Below are positions 11,966 to 31,762 of a stretch of 64,000 nucleotides of DNA, piece by piece. The notes under the pieces were generated by a model. That model was not told where the DNA came from. It ran no database searches and was given only the letters and a program-made list of their open reading frames with translations. The position numbers were made by a program, and so were the translations under genes. Source of the stretch: Leptolyngbya sp. KIOST-1 (lineage in GTDB: Bacteria; Cyanobacteriota; Cyanobacteriia; Phormidesmidales; Phormidesmidaceae); assembly GCF_000763385.1 (NCBI RefSeq), contig NZ_JQFA01000002.1, forward strand, positions 3,348,001 to 3,412,000, given 5' to 3'. Positions within the stretch are counted from its first letter, which is position 1; each line of letters starts with the position of its first letter.

Positions 11966-12979
11966 CTACCGTCGCTGCAGCGTCTGGGAGGGGGACTCGC
12001 CAAACAGCTGTTTGTAGTCCCTGGCAAAATGACCCAGGCTGACAAATCCCCACTGGTGGGCTAGCTGGCCAACGGTTTCGGGTTTGGGGTCGGCGCTGAG
12101 CAAAGCCCGGCGGATGCCGTGGAGCCGCTGCACTTTGACAAAGGCCATCGGCCCCATGCCCAGCATTTCCTGGAACCCGTATTGCAGCGATCGCTGGCTG
12201 GTGCAGACCGCCTGACAGATCTGGGCCAGGGTCAGGGGTTGATCCAGGTGGTCCATGATGTAGGCTTTGGCTGCGGTTACCAACTCGGCCCGACGGTAGG
12301 ATCGCGGAGCATCGGCCTGGTGGACCGGCGGCAGGGCGTCGATCAGCAGCGGCATCAGGTCCTCTTCCAGCAGGGTAGCGGCCAGGGGGGCGTGGCTCCA
12401 GGTGCGATCGCCTTCAGTGTCAAAGAGTTGGCGGAGGTAGGCACAGAGAGGAGAGACGCGATCTGCTGGGGGCGTGACCAGGTTGCGCTGGAGGAAGACT
12501 TCGTCCAGGTCGTAGCGCTGGGCCAGGGCGGCATAGTGCTGAAACAACGGCTGGGCGACCACAATCTGGCACTGATCCTGACCTTCAGGGGAGGTGATCA
12601 GATGGATGGGGCGCTGGTTGTCAAAGCCAGCGATGGCGTTTGCCGTCAGGCGTTTATCGTGGGCAAAGGCGGGGTGGGACTGCACTTGGAGCTGCACCAC
12701 AAAAATAAGGTGGTCGGGGCGTTTGTCGCCCATCACCTGGAGTGACTGGCTGGCCTGCTGCCGGGTCACCGTCAGGCCAGGGCTGACCACCCAGGAGGCC
12801 AAACGCCCCTGAAAGCTGCCCCGGCTGAGCTGGGTTAACTGGAGTCCGCCATGGGCGATCGCCTCGCCAAAGTGATCCACATCGTTAAAGGTAGCCTCCC
12901 GGTATTGCAGGCGATCGCCCACTGGTAAGCCAGGGGCCAATTGAGCAGAGCCATCGCGATTTCGGTCAAGTACATTCAC
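11966..12979 (-). CDS. AraC-family transcriptional regulator
   Basis: 337 residues starting at GTG 12979. The N-terminal two thirds is a ligand or sensing region without a recognised family (GSFQGRLASWVVSPGLTVTR, HLIFVVQLQVQSHPAFAHDK). The C-terminal ~100 residues are a double helix-turn-helix: PLTLAQICQAVCTSQRSLQYGFQEMLGMGP and TVGQLAHQWGFVSLGHFARDYKQLFGESPSQTLQRR, classical AraC/XylS signatures. It is divergent from the sulfatase island across a 730-bp gap with two copies of a direct-repeat element (13512, 13564), so control of that island is plausible but unproven. Confidence 0.92.
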   Translation of the reverse strand: MNVLDRNRDGSAQLAPGLPVGDRLQYREATFNDVDHFGEAIAHGGLQLTQLSRGSFQGRLASWVVSPGLTVTRQQASQSLQVMGDKRPDHLIFVVQLQVQSHPAFAHDKRLTANAIAGFDNQRPIHLITSPEGQDQCQIVVAQPLFQHYAALAQRYDLDEVFLQRNLVTPPADRVSPLCAYLRQLFDTEGDRTWSHAPLAATLLEEDLMPLLIDALPPVHQADAPRSYRRAELVTAAKAYIMDHLDQPLTLAQICQAVCTSQRSLQYGFQEMLGMGPMAFVKVQRLHGIRRALLSADPKPETVGQLAHQWGFVSLGHFARDYKQLFGESPSQTLQRR

Positions 12980-13511
12980 GCTTCACCTCATAGCAATGCT
13001 GACCATAGATTCCTTAGCGATAACATCCCTGAAATATGCGAAAACCATGGTTTAGCTACCTGGAGTCATACGTTTCATGTATCACAAAAAATATAAGGAA
13101 CTCGTATGGAAAAACAAATCTACTTACTTATATATTGAGTTTATTCAATGCCTATTGCCTGTACTGCCTGTATAGCTAGAGGCAGCACGAAAAGCTGGGC
13201 ACCTCAGTCAAAATCTCTGACAAAAGGGTGGCCTGTAACTGGACGGTTGAGATTCTGACTATGCGGTCAAATACTTGCTCAGGCCGCGATCGCGTCAGAT
13301 AGGGGTCCTTTTGCATGCTGGGTATGGAGGCTGAGCCCCAGCCGTGCAACCTATCTAGGCCCAGACAAGACATTAGAGAACAGCCATCCGCTTAGTCTGC
13401 GATCGCACTCAAAGCACTGCGCAGTAAGGAATGGCCGCAACGTGGTGTGTTGAATATACTCACTCAACATATAAAACGCTGCCGAGGAAAAGTAAAGCCG
13501 GAACCCGGGAA

Positions 13512-13532
13512 ACTTGCGTTTTTTGAATAGTG
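13512..13532 (+). promoter_or_regulatory. Direct-repeat element, copy 1 (upstream of sulfatase)
   Basis: Core TTGCGTTTTTTGAATAGTG, 178 bp before the sulfatase ATG at 13710. Identical to copy 2, which starts 52 bp (about five helical turns) later; a copy with one mismatch lies before the sulfatase at 22233. Similarity extends weakly 3' (G.GC.GAAAC). Placement on one helix face fits a dimeric or AraC-type activator site; the binding protein is unknown. Confidence 0.55.
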
Positions 13533-13563
13533 GCGCTGAAAACTTAACCTACAACTCGCCCAG

Positions 13564-13584
13564 ACTTGCGTTTTTTGAATAGTG
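13564..13584 (+). promoter_or_regulatory. Direct-repeat element, copy 2 (upstream of sulfatase)
   Basis: Same 21-bp sequence as at 13512, ending 125 bp before the sulfatase ATG at 13710. Confidence 0.55.
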
Positions 13585-13709
13585 AGAGCGGAACGTTAGA
13601 CCTAGGATCTACACAACTTTGTACTGAAGCATTTTTTGCCCCTCTCAGGAAAAAATATCTTTGCTCCAGCCATTTTCTCTGTACTTTAGCTGTACTCGTT
13701 AAGTAAGTC

Positions 13710-16064
13710 ATGGGTTCTCGGATTAGACTGCTTATCCTAACTTGGGCCATAATCGTCGCCCTTGTCTTTCAAGTTGCCGTGCCCCCGGCCCTGGCGCAAG
13801 CAACCCTACCTCGCCCCGAGCCCACCTTCCAGGGCCGCATTGGCGTCACCTACCAAGAGTCTCAGCCGGATACGGCCCTATTGCAGGCTACCCAAGCCCC
13901 CGAGGGTGCGCCCAACGTGTTGCTGGTGCTGATTGATGATGCGGGCTTTGGTTCAGCCAGCACCTTTGGCGGCCCCATTGCCACCCCCACCTTCGATCGC
14001 CTGGCGGCCAGCGGGCTGCGCTACAACACCTTCCACACCACGGCCCTGTGTTCGCCCACCCGCGCCGCCATCCTCACCGGGCGTAACCACCACTCGGTGG
14101 GGTCGGGCACCATTCAAGAACTGGCCACGGCCTATCCGGGCTATACGGGGTTGATTCCCCAAAGTACGGCAACCATCGGCCAAATCCTCCAGCGCAACGG
14201 CTATAGCACCGCCTGGTTTGGCAAAAACCACAATGTCCCCGACAACCAGACCACCAGCGTCGGCCCCTTCGATCGCTGGCCCAACGGTCTGGGCTTTGAC
14301 TATTTCTATGGGTTCATCGGTGGCGAAACCGACCAGTGGTATCCCACCCTGTACGAAAACCAAAAATTGGTCGAAACCCTGCCCCTGCCTGAGGAGGGCT
14401 ACAACCTCACCCATGATCTGGCCGACAGGGCGATCGCCTGGATCAACCAGGCCCAAACCACAGCCCCCGATCGCCCCTTCTTCGCCTACTTCGCCCCCGG
14501 TGCTGTCCATGCTCCCCACCAGCCCCCGGCGGAGTATGTGGCCAAGTACCAAGGCCAGTTTGATCAGGGCTGGGACAAACTGCGGGAGGAAACCTTTGCG
14601 CGGCAGAAAAAGCTGGGCGTGATTCCCGCCAACGCCGAACTCACCCCCCGGCCCGAACAAATGCCCGCCTGGGACAGCTTCAGCCCCGAAGATCAAAAAA
14701 TTCTGGCCCGCCAGATGGAAACCTACGCCGGGTTCCTCGACTACACCGACTACGAAATTGGCCGGGTGGTAGACGCCATTGCCGACCGGGGAGAACTGGA
14801 CAACACCCTGGTGATCTACATCAACGGCGACAACGGGGCCAGCGCCGAGGGCAGCTTGATCGGCAGTTGCAACGAAATAATGAACCTGAACGGGCTGAAC
14901 CTGACGATGGCGGACAATCGCCGCTGCTACGACATCTGGGGCAGTCCCGAAACCTCCCCCCACTACGCCGTGAGCTGGGCCTGGGCGATGGATAGCCCCT
15001 TCCAATGGACCAAGCAGGTGGCCTCCTACCTGGGGGGTATTCGCAACGGCATGGTGATCTCTTGGCCTGAAAAAATTAAGGAGAAGGGTGGACTGCGATC
15101 GCAGTTTAGCCATGTCATCGACATCGCCCCTACCATCCTCGAAGCCGCTGGCATTCCTGAGCCGGACATCTACAACGGCATTGCCCAAAAGCCCATGGAG
15201 GGCACCAGCCTGGTCTATACCTTTGAGCGGGGTGCGGCCACAACACCGGAACGTCACACCATCCAATACTTTGAGATGCTGGGCCACCGCGCCCTCTACA
15301 AAGACGGTATGATGGCCTCCGCCTTCCACAACCGTCTACCCTGGATTACCGCAGGCACCGTACCCTTTGACACCGATCAGTGGGAACTGTTCGACCTCAG
15401 CCAGGACTTCACCCAGGCCAAAGATCTCTCGGCGGCACAACCGGAAACCCTCCAGGAGCTTCAGGACTTGTTCCTGGCCGAAGCCGAGAAGTACAACGTG
15501 TTCCCCCTCGACGATCGCTTTGCCGAACGGGCCGATGTAAACCTCCGTCCCGGCTTCTTCACCGGGCGCAAGCACATCGAGTTTGCGGGTAATATGCCAT
15601 CGATTCCCGAAGGCAGCGCCCCCAGCACCAAAAATGCCTCCCACACTATTGATGTGGATCTGATGGTGCCGCCCCAGGGCGCGGAGGGGGTGATTGTCTC
15701 GGAGGGGGGCTTAACCAGCGGGTTTAGCCTCTATGTCAAAGACAACAAACTCATCTACGACTACAACTGGTTCGACCTGGAACGCACCTCCATTGCCGCC
15801 GCCACCCCCTTGCCCACGGGTAAGGTGCATGTGCGGTTTGACTTTGCCTACGACGGCGGCGGACCTGGGAAGGGTGGCACCGGCACCCTGTACATCAACA
15901 ACCGCAAGGTGGGCCAGGGCAAAATTCCTAAGACCGTGGCAGGCCGGTTTGGGGTCGAGGCGATGGACTTTGGCAAAGACTTGCAGTCGCCGGTAAGCCA
16001 GTCCTACCAGCCCCCCTTCGCCTTTACCGGGGTGGTGGAAAAGGTGGTGCTTGATATCAAGTAG
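13710..16064 (+). CDS. Secreted type I arylsulfatase
   Basis: 784 residues. The Sec signal peptide LLILTWAIIVALVFQVAVPPALAQ ends near residue 30. Metal-binding LLVLIDDAGFG is at about residues 71-81. The sulfatase signature CSPTR is at 114-118 inside TTALCSPTRAAILTGRNHH, with Cys114 the residue to become formylglycine. NGDNGAS (about residue 370) supplies further metal ligands. The C-terminal ~150 residues form a beta-rich extension, as in large AslA/BetC-like enzymes. It hydrolyses sulfate esters outside the cytoplasm; the substrate is unknown. A close paralogue is at 17585 and a maturing enzyme (FGE) at 30776. Two direct-repeat elements precede it and a perfect hairpin follows. Confidence 0.95.
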   Translation: MGSRIRLLILTWAIIVALVFQVAVPPALAQATLPRPEPTFQGRIGVTYQESQPDTALLQATQAPEGAPNVLLVLIDDAGFGSASTFGGPIATPTFDRLAASGLRYNTFHTTALCSPTRAAILTGRNHHSVGSGTIQELATAYPGYTGLIPQSTATIGQILQRNGYSTAWFGKNHNVPDNQTTSVGPFDRWPNGLGFDYFYGFIGGETDQWYPTLYENQKLVETLPLPEEGYNLTHDLADRAIAWINQAQTTAPDRPFFAYFAPGAVHAPHQPPAEYVAKYQGQFDQGWDKLREETFARQKKLGVIPANAELTPRPEQMPAWDSFSPEDQKILARQMETYAGFLDYTDYEIGRVVDAIADRGELDNTLVIYINGDNGASAEGSLIGSCNEIMNLNGLNLTMADNRRCYDIWGSPETSPHYAVSWAWAMDSPFQWTKQVASYLGGIRNGMVISWPEKIKEKGGLRSQFSHVIDIAPTILEAAGIPEPDIYNGIAQKPMEGTSLVYTFERGAATTPERHTIQYFEMLGHRALYKDGMMASAFHNRLPWITAGTVPFDTDQWELFDLSQDFTQAKDLSAAQPETLQELQDLFLAEAEKYNVFPLDDRFAERADVNLRPGFFTGRKHIEFAGNMPSIPEGSAPSTKNASHTIDVDLMVPPQGAEGVIVSEGGLTSGFSLYVKDNKLIYDYNWFDLERTSIAAATPLPTGKVHVRFDFAYDGGGPGKGGTGTLYINNRKVGQGKIPKTVAGRFGVEAMDFGKDLQSPVSQSYQPPFAFTGVVEKVVLDIK

Positions 16065-16113: not shown

Positions 16114-16758
16114 TCAGACCTCCTTCCCCTGGTCTTTCAGCTCTTGCCGAAAGGCTTTTGCCGCCGCTAACGGGTTCGGTTTTTGCAAGCAGCGGGTCAG
16201 CAACGCCAGATCCAAATCGGGCAAGACTTCGCTGTTTTGAATGGGTTCATACCCAGCGGTTTCGCCAAACTGGCCAGGGGTTTCTTCCCGCTGGTGATAC
16301 AGGTAAAGATGATTCTTTTGCCAGAACCACACTTCCCGCACCCCCAAACGACGGTACAGCTCCAGGCGATTGATGCTGCCGCTGGTCACAATCACCTCAA
16401 TCGCCAGATCGGGAAATTCTTTATCGGTGCCGATGCAGTAGCTTTCATCCGGTTCGCCCCCCGCCTGGTTTTCTGGCTTTTTCAGCGTCGTGGAACCCAT
16501 CGGGAAATATTCTGTTCCGGTTTCCAAAAAGTAGATCAGGAGCAAATCGCCGATTCGCGTCTTGCTGCTTTCGTGATTACGACTAGGAGCCAAGATCTCT
16601 AACACCCCATCTAAAAAATGCACCCGATAAGCAGAACCATCCCCCATGTCCGCCAGCAGCGCCTCGTACTGCGGCCACGACACCCGACTTAGCACCCGTC
16701 GTTCTTCCGGGTCATCCAGGGTGATGCGGTTCGTCAAATCGTTAAGGAGAATCATCAA
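16114..16758 (-). CDS. Uma2 family (DUF820) protein
   Basis: 214 residues. Motifs are SWPQYEALLADMGDGSAYRV, HFLDGVLEILAPSRNHESSK, and the core KEFPDLAIEVIVTSGSINRLELYRRLGVREVWFWQ, with the acidic residues of the PD-(D/E)XK-like fold. The C-terminus is Ala/Lys-rich. Convergent with the sulfatase and separated from it only by the hairpin. Nothing ties it functionally to the sulfatases; Uma2 genes are scattered over cyanobacterial genomes. Confidence 0.87.
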   Translation of the reverse strand: MMILLNDLTNRITLDDPEERRVLSRVSWPQYEALLADMGDGSAYRVHFLDGVLEILAPSRNHESSKTRIGDLLLIYFLETGTEYFPMGSTTLKKPENQAGGEPDESYCIGTDKEFPDLAIEVIVTSGSINRLELYRRLGVREVWFWQKNHLYLYHQREETPGQFGETAGYEPIQNSEVLPDLDLALLTRCLQKPNPLAAAKAFRQELKDQGKEV

Positions 16759-16880: not shown

Positions 16881-17438
16881 TTAACTATCTAGACCTCGAT
16901 AAAGCTCAGCCATATCGAATTCAAGCCCCAGGCTTTGCAGGACCACAGTCTCTCCATCGTTATAAACAGTGGTTTCCCAGGTATTTTCAGCGGTGCGACG
17001 ACGACATTCGACCTGTTGAGTGTCTTGAAAGACAAGAACATATTCCTCCAGGGAGGAGAGTTTGCAATAATCTTCAAATTTCTTTCCCAGATCAAAAACC
17101 TGGGTGCTTTCAGACAGTACTTCAGCAACAAGTTTGGGATAACGCTTTACATAGCGATCCTGTCTATCCCGCGAGTCACAAGTCACAAATGCATCAGGGT
17201 AATAATAAAACTCTTCTTGATGGTTGACTTTGACATTGCCTGAGTAGAAGCGACAGTCTGACGTGTCACCAAGGTGATTGTCAATAAGTTTGAGTAGGTT
17301 AAAGGAAATGCGATCGTGATTATCAGTGCCCCCGGCCATGGCGTAAACCAGGCCATAACGATACTCATGGCGAACCTGGCTCTGTCGCTCAATGCTGAGG
17401 TACTCTTCGGCGCTGATGTAGTTGGGAACGGCAATCAT
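16881..17438 (-). CDS. Uma2 family (DUF820) protein
   Basis: 185 residues from ATG 17438 (MIAVPNYISAEEYLSIERQS); seven more residues are possible from an upstream ATG at 17459. Family features are YISAEEYLSIERQSQVRHEY, GLVYAMAGGTDNHDRISFNL, YYYPDAFVTCDSRDRQD and VAEVLSESTQVFDLGKKFED. The subfamily differs from the one at 16114 (ESTxxxDxxxKxxxY rather than TSSSLNR), so this is not a recent tandem duplicate. Its start lies 146 bp from the divergent sulfatase at 17585. Confidence 0.87.
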   Translation of the reverse strand: MIAVPNYISAEEYLSIERQSQVRHEYRYGLVYAMAGGTDNHDRISFNLLKLIDNHLGDTSDCRFYSGNVKVNHQEEFYYYPDAFVTCDSRDRQDRYVKRYPKLVAEVLSESTQVFDLGKKFEDYCKLSSLEEYVLVFQDTQQVECRRRTAENTWETTVYNDGETVVLQSLGLEFDMAELYRGLDS

Positions 17439-17584
17439 CGACTTCGCCTGCCACTGCAATGGGTTGACTCCATTCTAAGGGGGCAATTCCCCAAACAGGT
17501 TTCTCGGGGTTGGGGGGACGGCATCGGGAGTACAGGGTTTGGATTGGGTATCCCACAACATTTTCTAACTTTTAAGAGGTAACT

Positions 17585-19948: not shown

Positions 19949-20094
19949 TTCTTACTGTGTCCCCAGTTTGGTCCTGGAACCTGGTCTGGGGGCGCAGTTA
20001 ACTCACATGTTTTACACAGTGGAGCTGAAGCGCTCAGCAGATAATTTGGCTGGCTGTTAGCCCCATGGACTGGAGTGATTGGGGGTTGATCCCG

Positions 20095-22008
20095 ATGGAA
20101 AGTCTTGAACTCGATCGCCGCACCTTTTTGCAAACGTCTCTGGCTGTAGCGCCTGCCATGCTTTCGTTCAATGCCCCAAAAGATGCCCCAAAAGACACCC
20201 TGGTATCTACCTCTGATAAACAAGTTTTTACCATCCTCCATACCAACGACATGCACTCTAACGTGGTGGGGGTGGGGCCGTTGCGAGACTACACGCCCTT
20301 GCGGTTGGGGGATGACCAGACCAGGGGCGGCTATGCCCGCCTGGGAGCGTTGATTGCTCAGCGTAAAGCCGCACTAGAACAACTCGGCCCCGTCCTGGTG
20401 CTGGATGCGGGGGACTTTAGCATGGGCACCGCCGTGGCCGCCGCCTGTCGCGAACTGGGGGCCGAGCTGCAACTGATGGCAGCCATGGGCTACGACGCCA
20501 CTACCTTTGGCAACCACGAGTTTGACCTGGGGCCGGATGGCCTGGGTCAGGCGATCAAGCAGGCGGCCAATGCCGGCCCTGTCCCGGCCATTGTGGTGAC
20601 GAATAGCGATGTCAGCGCCGACTCCGATCGCCTCGCCGATCTGCAAGCGCTGGCCCAGCGGGGGGTGCTTCAGCCCTACCGGGTGATTGAACGGGGTGGC
20701 CTACGGTTTGGCCTGGTGGGCATCATTGGCTACGATGCGTTTAAGTATTCAACCGATCCCGGAGAGGTTGTCTTTGGCGACCCGATCGCAACGGCCAAGG
20801 CAGCGGTGCAACGGCTGAAGCGGGAAGAACAGGTCGATGTGGCGATCGCCCTTAGCCACGGTGGCGTGGTCAAGCAGCCCGATGGGTCGTTCCAGGGGGA
20901 AGACCTGGCCCTGCTCGATGCCATCCCAGAATTAGATGTGGTGATTGGTGGCCATACCCACAGCGAATTGCGGGAGCCGCTCTTGGTCGATCATCGCCCG
21001 GTGGTGCAGACCGGCAAGTACGGCGAACACCTGGGTGAACTGGTGCTCAGTCTGGAGGATGGCCGGGTGCAGGTAGAGTCTTACCGGCTCATTCCTGTAG
21101 ATGACCAAATTCAGGGCGATCGCGCCCTTCAGAACCGGGTAGACCACTTTTTGCGCCGGGCGGGAGAGGTTACCTTTGCCCCCCGCGGCTACGCCACCAC
21201 CCAACCCCTGGTAATGATCACCGAAGACTGGCCCATGGACTACGCCGACATAGAGTCGGGCACACCCCTGGCCAATGTGGTGACGGACGCCCTGCGCCTT
21301 GCCACCAACAGCCAGATTGCCTTTACAGCCAATGGGGCCATCCGGGCCGGGCTGACCCAGGGCAAAACCGGGGTGCAAACGGTGTACGACATCTTTGCCC
21401 TGGCCCCCCTCGGCAACGGCATTGTGGACCCCACTGCCGGGAGTGCTCTGGTCAAAGGCTATTTCACGGCGGCGGAAATCAAAAACATCCTGGAATTTTT
21501 GCTGATGGACGACCCCAACCATCCCGGCGAATACTACCCCAGGACATCGGGTCTGCGGTTTTACTACGACCCCAGCCGCCCCCGGTTTGATCAGGTTACC
21601 AACCTAGAGCTGGGCAATCTGGACAACGGTTATCAACCCCTCGATCTAGACGCCCCTACCCTCTATAGCTTTGCCACCAGTTTGTACGTGGGCTCGATTC
21701 TGGTTTACATTCCCCAACTCAGCAAAGGTGCGTTGCCCCTCCAGCCTAAAAAGGCCGATGGCAGCCCCCTGACCACCAAGGCTGAAGCGATCGTTGACCC
21801 CAGGGAATCGACCAGTCCCTATGTCTTACCGGCGACAACCCATCTCAATGCCGACCTGGCTGCGATCAATGCAGCGAGCCGAGAAATTAAAGAGTGGCAG
21901 GCGATTATGGACTACCTCATGAGCTTGCCCCACAAAAACCCAGATGGCATTTCCGTCTTGCTCAAAGATGCCCGTGCCCGTGAGGTACGCGGCATTAAGT
22001 TCTATTAA
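20095..22008 (+). CDS. Tat-exported 5'-nucleotidase / metallophosphatase (UshA-like)
   Basis: 637 residues from ATG 20095 (MESLELDRRTFLQTSLAVAP), which places a twin-arginine motif DRRTFLQ at the N-terminus; an in-frame ATG at 20065 is less likely. The catalytic domain has FTILHTNDMHS (metal D and H), VLDAGDFSMG, TTFGNHEFDLG and VVIGGHTHSE. The C-terminal substrate domain includes GTPLANVVTDALRLATNSQIAFTANGAIRAGL. Family members release phosphate from nucleotides or related esters outside the cytoplasm, using metals loaded before Tat export. It lies between sulfatase genes on the same strand, so combined sulfate and phosphate scavenging is suggested. Confidence 0.93.
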   Translation: MESLELDRRTFLQTSLAVAPAMLSFNAPKDAPKDTLVSTSDKQVFTILHTNDMHSNVVGVGPLRDYTPLRLGDDQTRGGYARLGALIAQRKAALEQLGPVLVLDAGDFSMGTAVAAACRELGAELQLMAAMGYDATTFGNHEFDLGPDGLGQAIKQAANAGPVPAIVVTNSDVSADSDRLADLQALAQRGVLQPYRVIERGGLRFGLVGIIGYDAFKYSTDPGEVVFGDPIATAKAAVQRLKREEQVDVAIALSHGGVVKQPDGSFQGEDLALLDAIPELDVVIGGHTHSELREPLLVDHRPVVQTGKYGEHLGELVLSLEDGRVQVESYRLIPVDDQIQGDRALQNRVDHFLRRAGEVTFAPRGYATTQPLVMITEDWPMDYADIESGTPLANVVTDALRLATNSQIAFTANGAIRAGLTQGKTGVQTVYDIFALAPLGNGIVDPTAGSALVKGYFTAAEIKNILEFLLMDDPNHPGEYYPRTSGLRFYYDPSRPRFDQVTNLELGNLDNGYQPLDLDAPTLYSFATSLYVGSILVYIPQLSKGALPLQPKKADGSPLTTKAEAIVDPRESTSPYVLPATTHLNADLAAINAASREIKEWQAIMDYLMSLPHKNPDGISVLLKDARAREVRGIKFY

Positions 22009-23946: not shown

Positions 23947-24012
23947 AGATCCCAGGGTTCTTCCTGCATAATGACGCCATGGTTTGTGGTTAGGCAAAGA
24001 ACCCTGGGATCT
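23947..24012. repeat. 66-bp hairpin repeat, copy A
   Basis: 16-bp arms AGATCCCAGGGTTCTT/complement enclose a 34-nt centre. Tandem with copy B 14 bp later, and nearly identical in the centre. It lies 28 bp after the sulfatase stop. Confidence 0.75.
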
Positions 24013-24026
24013 GGGCACCCCAGGAG

Positions 24027-24103: not shown

Positions 24104-24817
24104 ATGATGGCCTTTCACCCCGACGCTCCCCCCATGACATCCGATACCCCGCTTCCCCCCCGCCCTCGCCTCAGAGCCCCCAAAGCTGCGGCCATTGCCG
24201 GGATTTTGTTTTCGGTTTTGCTGATCGTCAGTTCGGCTCTGATCTTGCTGGCGACCCCACCCACACCCCTGGGCACTGAGACCGGACTGCTGAGCCAAAC
24301 GCCCGCCGTGCTGCTGGCGCTAAACCTGGTGCCCTTTGCTGGCATTGCCTTCCTGTGGTTTATGGGGGTGGTGCGCGACGTGCTGGGGGAGCGGGAAGAC
24401 CAATTCTTTGCCACGGTGTTTCTGGGCAGCGGCCTGCTATTTGTGGCCATGCTGTTTGTCAGCTCAGCGGTGACCGGCAGTCTGCTTTTGCTCACCAGCC
24501 GACTCTCCGAAGGAGAACTGCTTACGGTCTACGACCTAGGCCGCCTCATCGCCCGCGAAACCCTCAGCACCTACAGTATTCGCATGGCCGGGGTGTTTAT
24601 GATTTCTAGCTGCACCCTGTTTCTGCGCACGGGGGTTATTCCCCGCTGGACGGCCTGGTTGGGCTTTGGGTTCGCCGCCATCATGCTGCTTAGAATTGGC
24701 TACATCAACAGCTTGGGCTGGGTAATGCTGCTGTTCCCCCTGTGGGTGCTGCTGGTCAGCCTCCACATTCTGACGGAAAGCTACACCCATCGCTCCGACA
24801 ATTTTTCCCAGGGTTAG
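24104..24817 (+). CDS. Multispanning membrane protein, unknown function
   Basis: 237 residues (ATG 24104; ATG 24134, giving MTSDTPLPPRPR, is equally possible and neither has a clear RBS). About six hydrophobic helices are visible: AAIAGILFSVLLIVSSALIL, AVLLALNLVPFAGIAFLWFM, FATVFLGSGLLFVAMLFVSS, a segment at SIRMAGVFMISSCTLF, WLGFGFAAIMLLRIGYI and WVMLLFPLWVLLVSLHIL. No signature of a named transporter family is recognised. It is the first of several small membrane-protein genes on the same strand after the sulfatase at 22233. Confidence 0.75.
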   Translation: MMAFHPDAPPMTSDTPLPPRPRLRAPKAAAIAGILFSVLLIVSSALILLATPPTPLGTETGLLSQTPAVLLALNLVPFAGIAFLWFMGVVRDVLGEREDQFFATVFLGSGLLFVAMLFVSSAVTGSLLLLTSRLSEGELLTVYDLGRLIARETLSTYSIRMAGVFMISSCTLFLRTGVIPRWTAWLGFGFAAIMLLRIGYINSLGWVMLLFPLWVLLVSLHILTESYTHRSDNFSQG

Positions 24818-24906: not shown

Positions 24907-25482
24907 ATGCTCGACCCTTCCCCATCTCCCCACCCGATAACCACCATGCCCCGCTTGGTCATGGCGATCCGCTGGACTCGTTTTATGAGCGTGCTGGCGG
25001 TGATCTCATCCTTGATTGGAGCCTTGCTGATGTTTTGGATTGGCACGGTCAACACCCTAAAAGCCGTTCTGTTAGTCATTAATGCCGAGGAATCGATGGT
25101 AGAGGGGAGCCGCATTTCCACCACCGAACTCGCCACCCTGGAGCTATTGGAATGCCTGGACAGCTTTCTGGTAGGGCTTGCATTTTTATACTTCGCCTAT
25201 GGCATTTACTCGCTGTTTATTCAGCTTGGCAAATCTGATACGGATTCGGGTACTTGGACCAAGCTGGGGGGAATCAGCACCCTAAAAAAGACCTTGATGG
25301 AGGTGCTGATTGTGCTGCTAACGGTGGTTTTTGTGAAGGGCCTGCTAGAACGGCTATCGTTTCGGGGGCTGGAGTGGACGTATATGGTAATTCCCCTCTC
25401 GATTTTGGCCCTGGCTGCCAGTACCCGCCTGCTGCAATTTGAAGGCGCTGAGGCGGCGAAGACAAAGGAGGCTGACGAATGA
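24907..25482 (+). CDS. UPF0114/YqhA family membrane protein
   Basis: 191 residues. UPF0114 features are an N-terminal helix after WTRFMSVLAVISSLIGALLM, a loop, the conserved LLECLDSFLVGLAFLYFAYGIYSLFI, STLKKTLMEVLIVLLTVVFVK, and a final helix. Family function is unknown. The stop overlaps the start of the MFS gene by 4 bp (ATGA), indicating translational coupling with it. Confidence 0.85.
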   Translation: MLDPSPSPHPITTMPRLVMAIRWTRFMSVLAVISSLIGALLMFWIGTVNTLKAVLLVINAEESMVEGSRISTTELATLELLECLDSFLVGLAFLYFAYGIYSLFIQLGKSDTDSGTWTKLGGISTLKKTLMEVLIVLLTVVFVKGLLERLSFRGLEWTYMVIPLSILALAASTRLLQFEGAEAAKTKEADE

Positions 25483-26939
25483 TGGCAACCGTTGCCCCCA
25501 GTTCCTTTGAACAGCGGTTGGACAATGCCCCCCTGACCCGGGCCATGGGGCTGCTGTGGCTGCTGTCGGCGGGGCTGATTGCATTGGATGGCTTTGACTT
25601 TTTCGTCATCGGCGTTGCCCTGCCCTTTCTCAAGCGGGATTTTGGCCTGGATGCGGTGACCGTGGGGGCGGTGGCCACGGCAGCGGTGGTGGGGTCGCTG
25701 GTGGGGTCGCTCACCCTGGGGCCAATCACCGATCGCGTGGGGCGCAAGCCGATGCTGATCGTCGATGTGGTGCTGTTTGTGGTGGCCACGGCGGGCACGG
25801 CCCTGGCCTGGAATGCCGCTTCGCTGATCGCCTTTCGGTTTTTGGTGGGGGTGGCGATCGGGGCCGATTACCCGATCAGCGTTGCCTACATCACCGAGAA
25901 CGTGCCCGCCCGGTGGCGGGGGCGCCTGGTGATTGGGGCCTTTACCTTTCAGGCGGTGGGGGCCATGGTGGGGGCGCTGACGGGGGTGGTGGTGATTCAC
26001 CTGTTTCAGGTGCTGTACGCCGACCCAGAACCGCTGGCGGTGCAGTATGCCTGGCGCTGGATGCTGGGGGTGGGGGTGGCCCTGGCGGTTGTCGTCGCGG
26101 CGGTGCGGCTGGCGGTACAGCTCGAAAGCCCCCGCTACTACATCAGCCGAGGTGAGTATGCCGAGGCTTCGGCCGCGGCCAGCCAGCTTTTGGGGGAACC
26201 CGTTGTGATCACCGCCGAGCATGAACCACCCCCCGAGACCGAACCGGCGAGCCTGGCCACGCTGTTTACCCCCCTCCATCGGCGCAGCACCCTATTGGCC
26301 TCGCTGCCCTGGTTTTTGCAGGACATCGCCACCTACGGCATCGGCATCTTTACCCCCACCATCATTGCCCTGCTGGCCCTGGCCACGGAAACCGACTTCA
26401 TGGCCAGGGAAATGGCCTCGGCCCAGGGGGCGGCTGTGGTGGATGTGTTTTTGATTGTCGGTTTTCTCTGCGCCGTGGCTCTGGTGGAACGGCTGGGGCG
26501 GATCCGCTTGCAAATCATCGGCTTTGGGGGCATGGCCGTGGGGCTGTTGCTGCTGGCGGCCTCGGGGCTGGTGACTTCGGGTAGCGGGGCGGAAATCGGG
26601 CTGGTGTTGGCCGGGTTTCTGGTGTTCAACCTGTTGATGAACGCTGGCCCCAACGCCACCACCTTTCTGCTGTCGGGGGAGGTGTTTCCCACCCGTCTGC
26701 GAGCTACCGGGGCGGGGTTTGCGGCGGCCTTTGCCAAGGCGGGGGCGGTGCTGGGCACCTTTGTGCTGCCCGTTTTAGGTAAATCTTGGGGGCTGCCGCC
26801 CCTGCTGGCGGGACTGGCGGTGGTTTGTGGGCTGGCGGCGGTGCTCACCTACCGCTTCCGCATTGAAACCACCGGTCAATCCTTAGAGGCGGTGCAGGAC
26901 TGGGAGCGATCGCTATCCTTTACCCCCCCAGGAGGTTAA
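25479..26939 (+). CDS. MFS transporter (sugar/phosphate:H+ symporter-like)
   Basis: 486 residues with about 12 membrane helices. MFS signatures are GPITDRVGRKPMLIVDV after helix 2 (the loop 2-3 D-R-x-G-R-K motif), RFLVGVAIGADYPISVAYI and PARWRGRLVIGAFTFQAVGAM, typical of the sugar-porter and phosphate:proton branches. VFPTRLRATGAGFAAAFAKAG lies near the C-terminal half. The substrate cannot be read from sequence. Coupled by overlap to UPF0114 upstream; DUF1622 follows after 3 bp. Location within the sulfatase island suggests uptake of a desulfated or dephosphorylated product, but that is inference. Confidence 0.9.
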   Translation: MMATVAPSSFEQRLDNAPLTRAMGLLWLLSAGLIALDGFDFFVIGVALPFLKRDFGLDAVTVGAVATAAVVGSLVGSLTLGPITDRVGRKPMLIVDVVLFVVATAGTALAWNAASLIAFRFLVGVAIGADYPISVAYITENVPARWRGRLVIGAFTFQAVGAMVGALTGVVVIHLFQVLYADPEPLAVQYAWRWMLGVGVALAVVVAAVRLAVQLESPRYYISRGEYAEASAAASQLLGEPVVITAEHEPPPETEPASLATLFTPLHRRSTLLASLPWFLQDIATYGIGIFTPTIIALLALATETDFMAREMASAQGAAVVDVFLIVGFLCAVALVERLGRIRLQIIGFGGMAVGLLLLAASGLVTSGSGAEIGLVLAGFLVFNLLMNAGPNATTFLLSGEVFPTRLRATGAGFAAAFAKAGAVLGTFVLPVLGKSWGLPPLLAGLAVVCGLAAVLTYRFRIETTGQSLEAVQDWERSLSFTPPGG

Positions 26940-26942: not shown

Positions 26943-27404
26943 ATGCCCTGGTTAGAGCCCCTTGAAACCCTTTCCGTTACCTTGGCCACCCTAGGGGGAA
27001 GCCTGCTGGAATTCTTGGGTATACTCTGCATTTTTGTGGGCATTTTTGCCACCGCTCGGCTGGCGATCAAAATCCTGCGACACCGCAAACGGGTGGTGCT
27101 GCCCTTTGTGCAAATTCGACTGAAGTTTGGCCTGTGGCTGGCCCTGGCGCTGGAATTTCAGCTGGGGGCCGATATCTTGAGTACTGCGATCGCCCCCAGC
27201 AACGACGCCCTGATTCGCCTCTCGGTGATTGCGGTCATCCGAACCTTCCTAAACTACTTTTTGAATAAAGAAATTGAGGCTCAACTGGAATTTCGTGAAC
27301 GGGCGATCGCCCACAACCATCCACCCCTATTTTTGATCGATAGCCCGACGGAGTTTATGGAAATTCCTCGGGATGACAGTAAGCCCCACTCTCCCCAACC
27401 ATGA
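26943..27404 (+). CDS. DUF1622 family membrane protein
   Basis: 153 residues. Family features are an N-terminal helix LLEFLGILCIFVGIFATARL, the basic loop ILRHRKRVVL, IRLKFGLWLALALEFQLGADIL and SVIAVIRTFLNYFLNKEIEAQL. Family function is unknown. An AGGAGG RBS overlaps the end of the MFS gene, and the stop overlaps the next DUF202 reading frame, so 24907-27790 reads as one operon. Confidence 0.87.
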   Translation: MPWLEPLETLSVTLATLGGSLLEFLGILCIFVGIFATARLAIKILRHRKRVVLPFVQIRLKFGLWLALALEFQLGADILSTAIAPSNDALIRLSVIAVIRTFLNYFLNKEIEAQLEFRERAIAHNHPPLFLIDSPTEFMEIPRDDSKPHSPQP

Positions 27405-27412
27405 CTGTTACA

Positions 27413-27790
27413 ATGACCGATTTCAACCCCCAAGACGAACTGGCCCGCGAGCGCAACCACCTAGCCGCCGATCGATCGCTGCTGTCCTTTGTGCGCAGCA
27501 GCCTCACCTTGATCGGTATTGGGGTGGCGGTGGATCAAGTGGTCAGTGCCATCGCCCCCAGCGGACGTTTTATTGATATCTGGGCCTACATCCTTAGTCT
27601 GCTGCTGCTGGGTTTGGGCGTCGTTACCCTGGCCCTCGCCATCCGTGACCACCAGGGCGAAATGCAACGGCTAAAAGCCCCAGTGTATCGCTATACTCCC
27701 CGCTGGCCTCTGGGGGCGACCACGGGCCTCCTGACGCTGATCATCGGCACTTTGGCCTTCTTCTGGTTAGGGTTTCAGCTATGGCTATGA
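27413..27790 (+). CDS. DUF202 family membrane protein (YidH-like)
   Basis: 125 residues from ATG 27413 (MTDFNPQDELARERNHLAAD); an in-frame ATG at 27401 overlaps the DUF1622 stop (ATGA). The family signature is the charged LARERNHLAADRSLLSFVRSSLTLIGIGVAVDQVV, followed by two more helices. First of four DUF202-containing genes within 3.2 kb. Function unknown. Confidence 0.85.
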   Translation: MTDFNPQDELARERNHLAADRSLLSFVRSSLTLIGIGVAVDQVVSAIAPSGRFIDIWAYILSLLLLGLGVVTLALAIRDHQGEMQRLKAPVYRYTPRWPLGATTGLLTLIIGTLAFFWLGFQLWL

Positions 27791-27807
27791 AGCACGGCTG
27801 TAGGGCC

Positions 27808-28221
27808 CTAAATCAAAAATAGGACGGTCACCAGCCCGGCGATGCCCAAAATCACAATGCCGGTGACGACGATTTGGTTCATCTCCTTCACTGATAGCAT
27901 TAAATAATCGGGGTTTTCAATGCTTTTAATCGCCAACCGATGTTGTATTAACCCTATGGCCAGAAGGACTAAGCCCACCCCCACAAAACCCATTCCAATC
28001 AGCGTTGCGGTCTCTCTGGTGATGGCCGGTTCCATGGCGGGAAATCGCCACCGCAGGCTGCGAAAAATCTGGTCGAAGGCAACCCCAAAACCGATCAAGC
28101 TGAGACAAATTCCCAACCAGGCATTGATAGTTCTTTCCGCTGCCGCCCGATTGCGCTCCTTCGCCAATTCGTTAGTTGGATTCAGTGGTTTTTGAGGCAT
28201 CGGATTGGCCATCGCGCTCAT
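27808..28221 (-). CDS. DUF202 family membrane protein
   Basis: 137 residues, on the opposite strand from its neighbours. N-terminal signature NELAKERNRAAAERTINAWL leads into the helix ICLSLIGFGVAFDQIF, then ETATLIGMGFVGVGLVLLAI and a C-terminal helix VTGIVILGIAGLVTVLFLI. The third residue after the AERT motif differs from the common MAWIRT form. Convergent with the DUF202 gene at 27413 (18-bp gap). Confidence 0.85.
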   Translation of the reverse strand: MSAMANPMPQKPLNPTNELAKERNRAAAERTINAWLGICLSLIGFGVAFDQIFRSLRWRFPAMEPAITRETATLIGMGFVGVGLVLLAIGLIQHRLAIKSIENPDYLMLSVKEMNQIVVTGIVILGIAGLVTVLFLI

Positions 28222-28346: not shown

Positions 28347-28368
28347 GGGCGGACACACGGGTCCGCCC
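28347..28368. repeat. GGGCGGAC...GTCCGCCC hairpin
   Basis: 8-bp arms, loop ACACGG; the identical 22-mer plus flank (CCTACG) recurs at 30686. Lies 35 bp before the DUF202 gene at 28403. Confidence 0.6.
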
Positions 28369-28402
28369 CTACGTCCCCACCACCCCACCACCCCATCACC
28401 CC

Positions 28403-28792
28403 ATGACCCAGCCCAACCCCGCCACCGAACTCGCCAAAGAACGCAACCGCGCTGCCGCAGAACGCACCCTGATGGCCTGGATTCGCACCTCCCTGGCCCT
28501 GATTGGCTTTGGCTTTGGGATTGAGCGGATTGTCGCCGCGATCTACGCAGCCCTGGGCGATGTCGTCAACCCGCTGCGGCTGTCGCGCATTTTGGGCCTC
28601 TCCTTCGTGGCTTTGGGCACCTTTGCCATGCTGTTCGCCGCCCTCGACCACCAGCGCCAGCTCAAACGCATCCAGCGCAACGACTTAATCTACCAATCCC
28701 GCCAGTCCCCTTCCCTGGTGGTGGCTTACGTGCTCACCGGGTTGGGGGCGATCGCCTTCCTCGGCATACTGATCAGCCCGCTGATTACTTAG
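28403..28792 (+). CDS. DUF202 family membrane protein
   Basis: 129 residues. Starts with TELAKERNRAAAERTLMAWI, then helix SLALIGFGFGIERIVAAIY, helix LGLSFVALGTFAMLFAAL, a basic loop, and helix VVAYVLTGLGAIAFLGILI. Its first 40 residues closely match the DUF202 part of the fusion protein that starts 322 bp downstream, suggesting the fusion's N-terminal domain arose by tandem duplication of such a gene. Confidence 0.87.
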   Translation: MTQPNPATELAKERNRAAAERTLMAWIRTSLALIGFGFGIERIVAAIYAALGDVVNPLRLSRILGLSFVALGTFAMLFAALDHQRQLKRIQRNDLIYQSRQSPSLVVAYVLTGLGAIAFLGILISPLIT

Positions 28793-28799
28793 TGAGGGG

Positions 28800-29114
28800 G
28801 GGGATGGGTGTATGAGTGGATGAGTGGATGAGTGGATGAGTGGATGAGTGGATGAGTGGATGAGTGGATGCCACCCAGAGACAGCCCGAAACACCCCTCA
28901 CTCTTCACCCTTCACCTATCACTCTTCACCCTTCACCTATCACTCTTCACCCTTCACCTCTTCACTCCTTCACCTCTTCACCCCCTACCCATCCACCCCC
29001 TTGCCCACCCACCCATCCACCCCCTACCCATCCACCCCCTACCCATCCACCCCCTACCCATCCACCCCCTACCCATCCACCCCCTACCCATCCACCCCCT
29101 ACCCATCCACCCCC
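28800..29114. repeat. Composite tandem-repeat tract before the DUF202-SBF gene
   Basis: Three tandem arrays in a row. GATGAGTG-type units run from about 28808 to 28868. CACTCTTCACCCTTCACCTAT-like 21-bp units lie at about 28898-28965. CACCCCCTACCCATC 15-bp units run from about 28990 to 29112. All stay open in the downstream reading frame (PSTPYPSTP...), so an ATG at 28848 is technically possible, but low complexity argues that translation starts at 29115. Confidence 0.8.
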
Positions 29115-30557
29115 ATGCTCCCCACCGAACCCCCGACCCCTCTACCGAGTAACAATGAGCTGGCCATGCAGCGGACCGTCATGGCCGAAAAACGAACAGA
29201 ACTGGCCGAAAACCGGACAACCATGGCGGAACAGCGCACCGACCTGGCCGAAAAGCGGACGGGCCTTTCCATGGAGCGCACCGACCTGGCTGAGCTACGG
29301 ACCGAACTGGCTAAGGAACGCACCCGCGCCGCCGAGGAACGCACCCTGATGGCCTGGATTCGTACCGCCCTGTCGATGATTAGCTTCGGCTTTGGCATCG
29401 ATCGCCTGTTCAGCTACCTCGATCGCACCGAGACCGCCCTCAGCATCAACCGTCTGACCGAGGAGCGGGTGCTGGGGCTGAGCCTGATGACCCTGGGGCT
29501 GGTGACGCTGGTGATGGCGATTGTCAACCACTGGACAACGCTGAAAACTATTGAATCCGACGATTACAAGTATGGCCCCACCTGGTCGCAGGGCTTGGTG
29601 GTGGCTACGGTGTTGTTGTTTTTAGGGCTGGCGGCCTTCATTCCCCTGGTGGTGGGGGGCGTGCAAATGGCGGAGGTGTTCACCCTCAACAGTCGGGTGA
29701 TTACCACCCTGGCGGCCCTGATCGTGTTTATTTTGATGCTCAGCCTGGGGGCGCAAACCTCGCCTAGCAGCTTTGCCACCCTGTGGCGGCAGCCCAGCCT
29801 ATTGGGGCGATCGCTGCTGGCCACCCTGGTGCTGTTCCCCGTGGGGGCGGCAGTAATTGGCTATCTGGTGCTCAGTGGCGGGCATCCGGGGGTAGGGCGG
29901 GTGGCCTTGGGGTTGGCGGTATTGGCGGCGGCTCCGGGGGCACCGCTGCTGTCTCGGCGGGCCTCCATGGCGGGCAGCAATCCAGAGGTGGCCATTAGCC
30001 TACAAGTGACCCTGGCCATACTGGCGATTGTCACCACACCGCTAACGCTGTGGGTGCTGACCCAACTGTTTGCCCCCATTGACGCCAGTGCCGACTATGG
30101 GGCCATTGCCAAGCAGGTCCTCCTCGCCCAAGTTTTACCCCTAGGGCTGGGGCTAGCCCTTCGCCAATTCAGCGGCGAGCAAGCGGAAAACGTCGGCCAA
30201 CTGCTGTCTACCATTGCCAGCACTCTGTTTGCGGTACTGCTAGTGTTTGCCCTAGGCATCAGCATCGTAGTGCTGCCCACCATTGCCTGGCGCGGTCTGG
30301 TGGCCATCCCGCTGATTGTGATATTCGGCCTCGCCTGCGGCCACTTTCTGGGCGGGCCCGAGATCTCGGTACGTTCCGCCATTGCCACCGGCACCATCGC
30401 CCGCAATGCCGGACTTGCCCTGTTCCTCCTCGCCGCCAATGGGGCCGGAAATGCCATTCCCACGGTGATCGCCTACGTGGTGATCGGGGCAGTGACAGCC
30501 TTCCCCTACAACGTTTGGGCCAAGCGACAACGGCAAACCGCAGAGAACCCAGCTTAG
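29115..30557 (+). CDS. DUF202-SBF fusion: heptad-repeat tail, DUF202 domain and bile-acid:Na+ symporter-like domain
   Basis: 480 residues from ATG 29115. Residues 14-76 are nine heptads of the form T-x-(L/M)-A-E-x-R (for example TELAENR, TDLAEKR). They run into the DUF202 signature AAEERTLMAWIRTALSMISF (about 71-90), and the DUF202 helices end near 195. The rest (about 200-470) has some nine helices and resembles SBF/SLC10-like carriers: LMLSLGAQTS, VALGLAVLAAAPGAPLLSR, PEVAISLQVTLAILAIVTTP and RSAIATGTIARNAGLALFLL. It probably carries an organic anion, perhaps Na+-coupled. The heptads could form a coiled coil. I know of no described DUF202-SBF fusion with this tail. Followed by a 66-bp hairpin. 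Confidence 0.85.
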   Translation: MLPTEPPTPLPSNNELAMQRTVMAEKRTELAENRTTMAEQRTDLAEKRTGLSMERTDLAELRTELAKERTRAAEERTLMAWIRTALSMISFGFGIDRLFSYLDRTETALSINRLTEERVLGLSLMTLGLVTLVMAIVNHWTTLKTIESDDYKYGPTWSQGLVVATVLLFLGLAAFIPLVVGGVQMAEVFTLNSRVITTLAALIVFILMLSLGAQTSPSSFATLWRQPSLLGRSLLATLVLFPVGAAVIGYLVLSGGHPGVGRVALGLAVLAAAPGAPLLSRRASMAGSNPEVAISLQVTLAILAIVTTPLTLWVLTQLFAPIDASADYGAIAKQVLLAQVLPLGLGLALRQFSGEQAENVGQLLSTIASTLFAVLLVFALGISIVVLPTIAWRGLVAIPLIVIFGLACGHFLGGPEISVRSAIATGTIARNAGLALFLLAANGAGNAIPTVIAYVVIGAVTAFPYNVWAKRQRQTAENPA

Positions 30558-30561
30558 TCGG

Positions 30562-30627
30562 AGATCCCAGGGTTCTCAAGTCCCTTGGCCAATGGCAAAA
30601 CCTCCCTTAGTTAGAACCCTGGGATCT
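30562..30627. repeat. 66-bp hairpin repeat, copy C
   Basis: Arms as in copies A and B but with an unrelated 36-nt centre; starts 5 bp after the DUF202-SBF stop. The 3' arm ends in GGGATCTTTAA, so it may serve as a weak terminator. Confidence 0.7.
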
Positions 30628-30685
30628 TTAAGACCAATTTGCCTCCTTGTCTATTTTCCATCCACCTCCGCTACCATTCCTGCCC

Positions 30686-30707
30686 GGGCGGACACACGGG
30701 TCCGCCC
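30686..30707. repeat. GGGCGGAC...GTCCGCCC hairpin, second copy
   Basis: Exact copy of the hairpin at 28347, again followed by CCTACG and by heptamer repeats that lead to a start codon. Confidence 0.6.
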
Positions 30708-30710
30708 CTA

Positions 30711-30775
30711 CGCCCACCCATCCACCCGCCCACCCATCCACCCGCCCACCCATCCACCCATCCACTCATCCACCC
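30711..30775. repeat. Heptamer repeats CACCCATC/CACCCGCC before the FGE gene
   Basis: C-rich strand of the heptamer family, running directly into the ATG at 30776; no Shine-Dalgarno sequence is visible inside it. Confidence 0.7.
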
Positions 30776-31762
30776 ATGCCTCTCCCCCGCTCCCTCACCC
30801 TCCTCACCCTCCTCACCCTTCTACTCTTCCCCCTCCCCTCCCTCGCGGACTCTTACCCCTGCCCTGGGGATATGGTCTACATCCCTGGGGGCACGTTCAC
30901 CATGGGGGCTGAAGACTCGGACTTTGTGGAGGAAAAAATTGCCGAGGATGTCTTCGTCAGCAGTTTTTGCATCGAACCCCATGAGGTCACGAATGCCCAG
31001 TTTGCCGCCTTTGTGGCGGATACAGGCTATGTCACCGTGGCGGAGCGGCCCCTGTCTGGGGCGGAATTTTCTGATTTGTCTGAGGAGGAGCGATCGCCGG
31101 GTTCCCTGGTGTTTCAGCCGCCGGAGGAGGGCCTTCAGCAGGTGGCCTACCTGAGCTGGTGGCATTGGGTGCCGGGGGCCAACTGGCGACACCCCTACGG
31201 CCCCGATAGCGATTTGCAAGGTAAGGAGAATCATCCCGTGGTTCACATTGCCTACGAGGATGCCACGGCCTATGCCGCTTGGGCCGATCGCCAACTGCCC
31301 ACCGAGGCCCAGTGGGAGTACGCCGCCAGGGGCGGGGCCGAGGGCTGGACCTACACCTGGGGCGAGCAGTACTCCGCTAAACAGGCCAATACCTGGCAGG
31401 GGTTGTTTCCCTTTTTCAACACCAAGGCCGATGGCCACCTGGGCACCGCTCCGGTGATGTCCTACCCGGCCAATGGCTATGGCCTCTACGATATGGCGGG
31501 GAATGTGTGGGAGCTGACCTCCAGCTGGTACACCGTGCTCCACGACGACCTGGCCCACCAGCATGACCCCATCGGCCCTGCCCAGGCGGCCAGCTACGAT
31601 CCTAAAAAGCCCCAGGACGGAGCCACCCATGTGATCAAAGGGGGCTCTTACCTATGCGCCAAGAACTATTGCAGCCGTTACCGCCCCGCTGCCCGGGAAT
31701 CCCAAGCGGTGGATACCGGTACTACCCATGTGGGGTTTCGGTTGGTGAAGGCGATCGCCTAA
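30776..31762 (+). CDS. Secreted formylglycine-generating enzyme (FGE/SUMF1 family)
   Basis: 328 residues from ATG 30776, giving a signal peptide SLTLLTLLTLLLFPLPSLAD; the frame is open further upstream through repeats only. FGE features are MVYIPGGTFTMGAEDSDF, FCIEPHEVTNAQFAAFV, NHPVVHIAYEDATAYAAWAD, LPTEAQWEYAARGG, YGLYDMAGNVWELTSSWY and, decisively, KGGSYLCAKNYCSRYRPAAR. Cys294 and Cys299 in that last motif are spaced as the copper-binding catalytic pair of aerobic FGEs, and many FGE-sulfatase superfamily members lack them. It oxidises the signature Cys of sulfatases to formylglycine, matching the three C-x-(P/A)-x-R sulfatases upstream. The leader suggests action during or after export. 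Confidence 0.93.
   Translation: MPLPRSLTLLTLLTLLLFPLPSLADSYPCPGDMVYIPGGTFTMGAEDSDFVEEKIAEDVFVSSFCIEPHEVTNAQFAAFVADTGYVTVAERPLSGAEFSDLSEEERSPGSLVFQPPEEGLQQVAYLSWWHWVPGANWRHPYGPDSDLQGKENHPVVHIAYEDATAYAAWADRQLPTEAQWEYAARGGAEGWTYTWGEQYSAKQANTWQGLFPFFNTKADGHLGTAPVMSYPANGYGLYDMAGNVWELTSSWYTVLHDDLAHQHDPIGPAQAASYDPKKPQDGATHVIKGGSYLCAKNYCSRYRPAARESQAVDTGTTHVGFRLVKAIA

Follow-up and report, generated by a model that had tools for sequence, protein, structure and literature searches.

In the genome of Leptolyngbya sp. KIOST-1 (6,320,123 bases in 13 contigs), a window of 64,000 bases (positions 3,348,001-3,412,000 of contig C2) carries a block of genes for three predicted exported sulfatases (A, B and C), a formylglycine-generating enzyme (FGE) and a fusion of a DUF202 domain to a carrier of the sodium/bile acid symporter family (SBF), with an AraC-type regulator at its edge. 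We hypothesize that this block represents a conserved organosulfate-processing module, in which FGE would activate the sulfatases after their export and an anion carrier would move substrate or product, and we give this reading slightly better than an even chance of being correct. The grouping of SBF and DUF202 genes with sulfatase and FGE genes, to which a preliminary description of the window had drawn attention, recurs across the cyanobacterial class in a neighbourhood search. Since the gene order recurs in relatives and the FGE-SBF link lies far above expectation, the arrangement is more than chance.

FGE was found at E <= 1e-60 in 86 of 388 genomes of the class, 14 of them from the family of KIOST-1. 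From 57 of the 72 FGE-bearing class genomes outside that family we took 60 stretches around FGE, and 80 named FGE loci, mostly non-cyanobacterial, formed a comparison set. Profiles detected SBF in 26 of the 60 class stretches, DUF202 in 12 and DUF1622 in eight. SBF genes from these 57 genomes were divided at E = 1e-23, a cut chosen after viewing the list, into 73 strong-scoring and 55 weak-scoring genes. Among the weak-scoring genes, 32 of 55 lay within 15 kb of a listed FGE, compared with 0.46 expected by chance, and among the strong-scoring genes none of 73 did, so that treating all SBF genes as one group was rejected. Surroundings were taken for 19 of the 23 remaining weak-scoring genes, and these contained a sulfatase in six stretches, DUF202 in five and DUF1622 in four; one of them (L263) has an FGE that was absent from the class list. 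The twentieth test stretch (L256) holds a strong-scoring gene and is without a sulfatase. In 20 control stretches around strong-scoring genes, sulfatase, DUF202 and DUF1622 were each found in none. Our own SBF profile matched only 12 of these 20 stretches, and by motif the 12 look like arsenite carriers; the control thus stands for further members of the SBF family and not for established bile-acid symporters. The control genes stood apart on a long branch in a tree of 76 carriers, many forks elsewhere in it being unsupported.

The composition of these neighbourhoods varies. DUF202 and SBF are separate neighbouring genes in three stretches (L191, L192 and L253) and are fused in the clade of the window and in L193. 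A signal-less relative of sulfatase C in Paraburkholderia caribensis MBA4 lies beside DUF202, SBF and the radical-SAM maturase anSME (TIGR03942, 466.6 bits, cut-off 349.45). Within the cyanobacterial class anSME was present in 11 of the 388 genomes (10 above cut-off), with DUF1622 within 15 kb in six of the 11 (one of these, G015, being below cut-off), and a single stretch (L257) contains anSME, DUF1622, DUF202, SBF and sulfatase C together. Thus Paraburkholderia and several cyanobacteria resemble KIOST-1 in keeping a sulfatase, anSME or both with DUF202, DUF1622 or SBF, and differ from it in having anSME in place of FGE. Because anSME replaces FGE at some carrier loci, the carrier seems to have the sulfatase, and not FGE, as its partner. 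Genes resembling outer-membrane barrels were noted by eye beside carriers in L001, L069, L219, L253 and L296; all their Pfam matches were below cut-off, and no association is claimed.

Several observations weigh against a general partnership of this kind. At the named FGE loci, SBF and DUF202 were each found in two of 80 and DUF1622 in none of 80, and the division into weak and strong SBF genes is post hoc. In addition, 23 of the 55 weak-scoring genes lie away from any listed FGE, and no sulfatase was seen in 13 of the 19 stretches fetched around such genes. DUF1622 is not exclusive to these loci, as among 150 matches listed, 16 were near FGE and six near anSME. Finally, no sulfatase accompanies the SBF gene of a Nostoc plasmid in its annotated stretch.

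The carrier itself has an unusual signature. In a model of the SBF part (mean predicted local distance difference test score, pLDDT, 92.2) the fold is that of the bile acid:sodium symporters (BASS), and the best-matching solved structures are bacterial bile-acid symporters, with a Foldseek E value of 1.5e-9 to 8OYG and 277 residues aligned to 6LGZ (VIA-align Z 29.1, root-mean-square deviation 2.9). The whole fusion was modelled poorly (pLDDT 48.6), and the TIGR00841 score of the carrier, 51.7 bits, is below the cut-off of 326.3. The carrier shares its fold and the Pfam SBF family with ASBT_NM (3ZUX/8OYG), ASBT_Yf (4N7W) and NTCP (7WSI), whereas block-type carriers have a small or hydrophobic residue and an Arg at the Glu and Gln of the NTCP segment ETGCQN. 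This segment of NTCP aligns in the related carrier of L219 to residues without Glu and with Arg in place of Gln, and the KIOST-1 carrier has Gly and Arg at the crossover Glu and Gln positions (Arg codon at 30402-30404). Among 49 carriers with a sulfatase or FGE nearby, the Glu position is occupied by small or hydrophobic residues, with Glu in one, and the Gln position by Arg in 46 (the rest having His, a gap or Gln). Arg was likewise present in 14 of 15 carriers with neither gene in their stretch, the exception being the strong-scoring gene of L256, and in none of 12 controls, where Asn takes its place. In the SBF model, helices 230-241 and 245-254 flank Arg243, with a break there that we take as the crossover.

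The Glu and Gln of the ASBT/NTCP crossover are residues that we take to bind Na+. As Gly and Arg replace them in KIOST-1, the carrier would be anion-binding and not Na+-driven, and judged from its residues an ordinary Na+ symporter is unlikely. Without the Na+ ligands, the carrier would also lack the force that usually drives uptake, and it might instead export sulfate or a toxic desulfated product of the sulfatases, particularly as it also accompanies sulfatases without signal peptides. The product of exported sulfatases is, however, already outside the cytoplasm, where no exporter would be needed, and the carrier is kept nevertheless; we consider export an unlikely account. The presence of the carrier beside signal-bearing and signal-less sulfatases alike would fit the organosulfate module with a small anion as cargo. 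A wider proposal is that distinct, Na+-independent, Arg-based carriers of the BASS fold with DUF202 (often with DUF1622, and fused in some lineages) are standing partners of formylglycine sulfatases, whichever maturase is present, mainly in cyanobacteria, as a transferable module for organosulfate use on chromosomes and plasmids. This we put forward tentatively, as a possibility that falls somewhat short of an even chance.

SUMF1-type FGE converts the motif Cys of sulfatases to formylglycine with Cu and O2. The KIOST-1 enzyme matches PF03781 over its full length (259.4 bits, cut-off 23.3), and all 14 of 14 aligned relatives retain the C-x4-C pair near its C-terminus; counted from the ATG at 30776, this pair is C294/C299, as previously described. 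A profile of these 14 relatives matched the solved FGE 6S07 (2.4e-88), with the Cys pair aligned to that of 6S07. The preliminary description had supposed that the block has its own maturation enzyme, and a housekeeping FGE elsewhere was looked for: the PF03781 profile search found no second FGE in the KIOST-1 genome, and no anSME was found at E <= 0.001. One other, split PF03781 match was rejected as FGE since it reads as EgtB adjoining EgtD (naming by eye). The view of the island as self-contained proved too narrow, in that two more Cys-type sulfatases are encoded elsewhere. Of the six PF00884 matches in the genome, three are inside the block. Outside it, a CTPSR sulfatase bears a signal peptide and has a divergent AraC gene of its own, a CAPTR sulfatase lacks such a peptide, and a third gene encodes Thr instead of the motif Cys. 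As only one FGE was found, it would serve more than the block, or else the outside sulfatases stay unmodified.

The CAPTR sulfatase belongs to a second sulfatase region (C4 1387707-1400466; L001, L251), in which, with names assigned by eye, there are also an AraC-like gene, an Arg-type SBF gene, a DUF1254-like gene on either side of the sulfatase and two transposase open reading frames (ORFs) that share N-terminal sequence. DUF1254-like proteins, often several, were also seen near FGE or sulfatase genes in L191, L192, L219 and L243.

The preliminary description had all three block sulfatases and FGE exported, and their N-termini do look like Sec signal peptides, as judged from inspection and from rules of our own making; in FGE the N-terminus is hydrophobic and signal-like from the start at 30776. 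Because both partners carry such signals, FGE most likely acts outside the cytoplasm. To compare compartments, each Cys-pair FGE was paired with the nearest same-strand sulfatase within 6 kb, which left out the window, where the nearest sulfatase is more than 6 kb from FGE. The signal-peptide rule was a relaxed one; a stricter rule missed the exported FGEs of L197-L200, L205, L211 and L215. In the 42 class pairs, both proteins were exported in 25 and both unexported in 16 (table 25/1/0/16), and the one discordant pair (L228) has a sulfatase whose N-terminus looks frame-shifted. The corresponding counts were 11, 1, 4 and 7 for 23 pairs from the named loci and 3, 0, 0 and 1 for the family. The Fisher p of 1e-10 for this match was rejected as proof, since export changes four times on the FGE tree and independent pairs were unsupportive.

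Extracytoplasmic maturation faces its own difficulties. Cyanobacterial FGEs form two groups on the FGE tree, on which export changes only four times, so the compartment match represents few evolutionary events. Four of the 11 FGEs called unexported in the named set sit by a signal-bearing sulfatase, of which L079 and L087 look like misses of the rule. The CAPTR sulfatase of KIOST-1 lacks a signal peptide, yet FGE is exported, and in G123 and G366 a cytoplasmic sulfatase C lies beside an exported FGE, with no anSME at E <= 1e-60. An exported FGE alone is not new, because signal-bearing FGEs are widespread (36 of 71 named Cys-pair FGEs were called exported).

Conservation was followed in a family set of 63 genomes, where a close FGE had at least 79% identity (partial in G035) and a close DUF202-SBF at least 64% (partial in G040). 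Close FGE was present in 12 genomes, DUF202-SBF in 12 and both in 11, and the two genes adjoin in all 10 genomes that have both on one contig. G027 has only the fusion and G035 only FGE, in both cases at the end of a contig. FGEs of lower identity (49-62%) occur in G022 and G037, and G043 has one as its second copy. Linkage in relatives, on which the preliminary description had made its proposal depend, was found as the same gene order in nine further genomes from two genera (G042, G026, G043, G034, G038, G036, G002, G004 and G003). All nine have sulfatase C in the block, five have sulfatase B (G042, G026, G043, G003 and G002) and four of these five also have sulfatase A. The nucleotidase and the carrier of the major facilitator superfamily (MFS) had no match in the G042 block, and sulfatases A and B none in the stretch from G038 (BL0902). 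The G036 fusion is without most of its DUF202 part, and the contigs of some relatives end within the block. The DUF202 triplet of the block also occurs without a close FGE in relatives L075 and L076.

The block of BL0902 is on plasmid NZ_CP046157.1 (plasmid 2, 93,510 bases), beside ParA/ParB and CyRepA1 genes, and is interrupted by transposase, NTF2-like and AAA-ATPase genes (L252 15285-19830). This location, together with an SBF-sulfatase pair on a Sphaerospermopsis plasmid typed as conjugative, could mean that the genes merely travel together on plasmids without a joint function. We find such hitchhiking quite improbable, as lineages differ in gene order, in the type of sulfatase and even in the maturase, and yet SBF, often with DUF202 or DUF1622, stays with the sulfatase; as the proximity to FGE divides weak-scoring from strong-scoring SBF genes; and as the fusion unites two genes that elsewhere are separate neighbours. 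PF00884 matches three genes of BL0902 at E <= 1e-10, and two of the three are on plasmid 2. Plasmid 2 also carries a second row of genes (L296 3133-11193), AraC / SBF / DUF2092 / DUF6515 / sulfatase, and this sulfatase has CTSSR and not C-x-P/A-x-R.

All three block sulfatases combine PF00884 with the type I motif C-x-P/A-x-R and, as first reported, have it intact (CSPTR, CSPTR and CTAGR). The nearest PDB entries are the arylsulfatase 4CXK/1HDH for sulfatase A (2e-69) and 7AJ0 for sulfatase C (9e-64). Alignments inspected by eye (A with 1HDH, C with 7AJ0) showed that the metal Asp pair, the Lys and His of GKxH and DNG are retained, residues that we presume to have their usual active-site roles. 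Pseudomonas aeruginosa AtsA (1HDH) is thus the closest solved relative of sulfatase A, with its active-site residues aligned, and differs in that sulfatase A has 784 residues, of which 67-586 match, with a signal peptide at one end and ~200 extra residues at the C-terminus. 1HDH is listed as a member of S1_4 (PMC5066984); as it is the nearest structure to sulfatase A, sulfatase A may belong to this subfamily. With this neighbour, small esters are favoured over long polysaccharides as substrates, at low certainty.

The exported sulfatases might instead trim the cell's own sulfated extracellular polysaccharide (EPS), the carrier then having an envelope role without nutrient gain. Cyanobacteria make sulfated EPS, the block sulfatases bear signals, and so, by prediction, do all sulfatases of the Cyanobacteria metagenome-assembled genomes (MAGs) studied from Shark Bay mats (PMC9723792). 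The similarity of sulfatase A to an S1_4 arylsulfatase (PMC5066984) argues otherwise, as does the lack of any glycoside hydrolase or lyase family among the 20 window proteins scanned with Pfam, and relatives retain the carrier with signal-less sulfatases, enzymes for which EPS would be an improbable substrate. Remodelling of EPS is therefore, in our view, not a likely function of the block. The description of the 5'-nucleotidase as a scavenger was unsupported: besides its lack of a match in the G042 block, every listed NCBIfam match was below cut-off, with Metallophos and 5_nucleotid_C domains both present.

Under the organosulfate module that we favour, sulfatases A, B and C and FGE would be exported through their Sec-type signal peptides, and FGE would oxidise the motif Cys to formylglycine on newly exported, still unfolded sulfatases, in the periplasm or another extracytoplasmic space. 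The mature sulfatases would then cleave sulfate esters outside the cytoplasm and free sulfate, and the Arg-type SBF carrier joined to DUF202 would move an organic anion across the inner membrane. The cargo in KIOST-1 would probably be the product, or substrate that has lost part of its sulfate; where relatives have cytoplasmic sulfatases, the intact sulfate ester could be carried instead. Control of the block probably falls to the divergent AraC protein. We infer roles in the module for DUF202, DUF1622, UPF0114, the 237-residue membrane protein and the MFS carrier as well.

Genes of the block in the KIOST-1 window, with families assigned by Pfam profiles above cut-offs
Feature	Position	Strand	Family match and remarks
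AraC-type regulator	11966..12979	-	PF12833 1.3e-19; divergent from sulfatase A
Sulfatase A, 784 aa	13710..16064	+	PF00884 1.5e-70; apparent signal peptide, CSPTR
Two Uma2 genes	16114-16758 and 16881-17459	-	PF05685 (Pfam)
Sulfatase B, 787 aa	17585..19948	+	PF00884 1.2e-59; apparent signal peptide, CSPTR
5'-nucleotidase/UshA-superfamily enzyme	20065..22008	+	PF02872 + PF00149; Tat-like N-terminus
Sulfatase C, 561 aa	22233..23918	+	PF00884 7.5e-53; apparent signal peptide, CTAGR
237-aa membrane protein	24104..24817	+	No NCBIfam match; no Pfam match up to E = 1
UPF0114 membrane protein	24907..25482	+	PF03350 1.5e-18
MFS carrier, sugar/aromatic acid/phosphate symporter-like	25479..26939	+	PF00083 1.5e-55; NCBIfam matches shown below cut-off
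DUF1622 membrane protein	26943..27404	+	PF07784 2.1e-23
DUF202 triplet	27401-27790, 27808-28221, 28403-28792	+, -, +	PF02656
DUF202-SBF fusion	29115..30557 (ORF from 28848)	+	PF02656 + PF01758; heptad array, DUF202, then SBF carrier
FGE	30776..31762 (ORF from 30647)	+	PF03781 5.1e-77; apparent signal peptide, Cys294/Cys299

The genes named in the preliminary description (AraC, the three sulfatases, 5'-nucleotidase, MFS, DUF202-SBF and FGE) are at the places and on the strands it gave, above Pfam cut-offs; further to these, the block contains three more DUF202 genes (one on the minus strand), DUF1622, UPF0114, the 237-residue membrane protein and two Uma2 genes on the minus strand. The DUF202 domains of its four genes scored 44.6 to 63.6 bits (cut-off 23.4). 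A relative of the AraC gene keeps the same position in L057, in L063 and on the BL0902 plasmid. The Uma2 genes are probably passengers; in L057 and L060 both separate sulfatase A from sulfatase B, in L063 only the first does, and in L068 the first alone lies upstream of sulfatase B. The 237-residue protein is present in seven of the 60 class stretches and, in other cyanobacterial families, lies beside FGE, sulfatases or sulfatase C. By eye, the 5'-nucleotidase opens with DRRTFLQ, a motif like that of twin-arginine translocation (Tat) signals.

The ORF starts at 28848 and 30647 are too far upstream because these stretches translate short tandem repeats, and the true starts are likely to be 29115 for DUF202-SBF and 30776 for FGE. 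The repeats, GGATGAGT- and CCCATCCAC-like, are intergenic at 28800-29111 and 30650-30775 and artificially extend the ORFs; a translated stretch resembling them also precedes EgtD in L004. The N-terminus of the fusion (29112-29400) consists of heptads with R-T/N every seven residues, the copy number of which varies between relatives. A 15-base inverted repeat with a loop (AGATCCCAGGGTTCT) follows the fusion gene at 30558-30630, with a similar core at 24002-24025. A promoter scan was uninformative, with six found compared with 7.5 in shuffled sequence.

The pairing of FGE with sulfatases was already established, as the preliminary description stated, and the block resembles the sulfatase-FGE neighbourhoods of aerobic bacteria, in that 27 of the 71 named loci with a Cys-pair FGE have a C-x-P/A-x-R sulfatase in the stretch taken. 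Unlike those, it adds a membrane carrier (SBF in two of 80 named loci). We found no published description of the partnership of this carrier with sulfatases in the open-licence full text of PubMed Central (PMC), a collection outside which most subscription papers lie, and no two of DUF202, DUF1622 and sulfatase (as whole words, excluding "arylsulfatase") occur together there. DUF202 by itself occurs in five papers of that collection, and the three that speak of a periplasmic FGE or the like concern human SUMF1/FGE disease (two) and a Bacteroides strain from the gut (one). For Shark Bay, sulfatase and FGE genes have been mapped MAG by MAG (PMC9723792), and a Synechocystis sulfur-starvation study has "arylsulfatase" for Chlamydomonas and in a reference only (PMC2491639).

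In the literature found, the use of organic sulfate by cyanobacteria is little described. A carrier group that is linked by position to sulfatases and has an Arg signature would offer a handle on the cargo of the module and a context for DUF202 and DUF1622. As BL0902 is described as genetically tractable (PMC11298460) and carries the block on a plasmid, the idea is directly testable.

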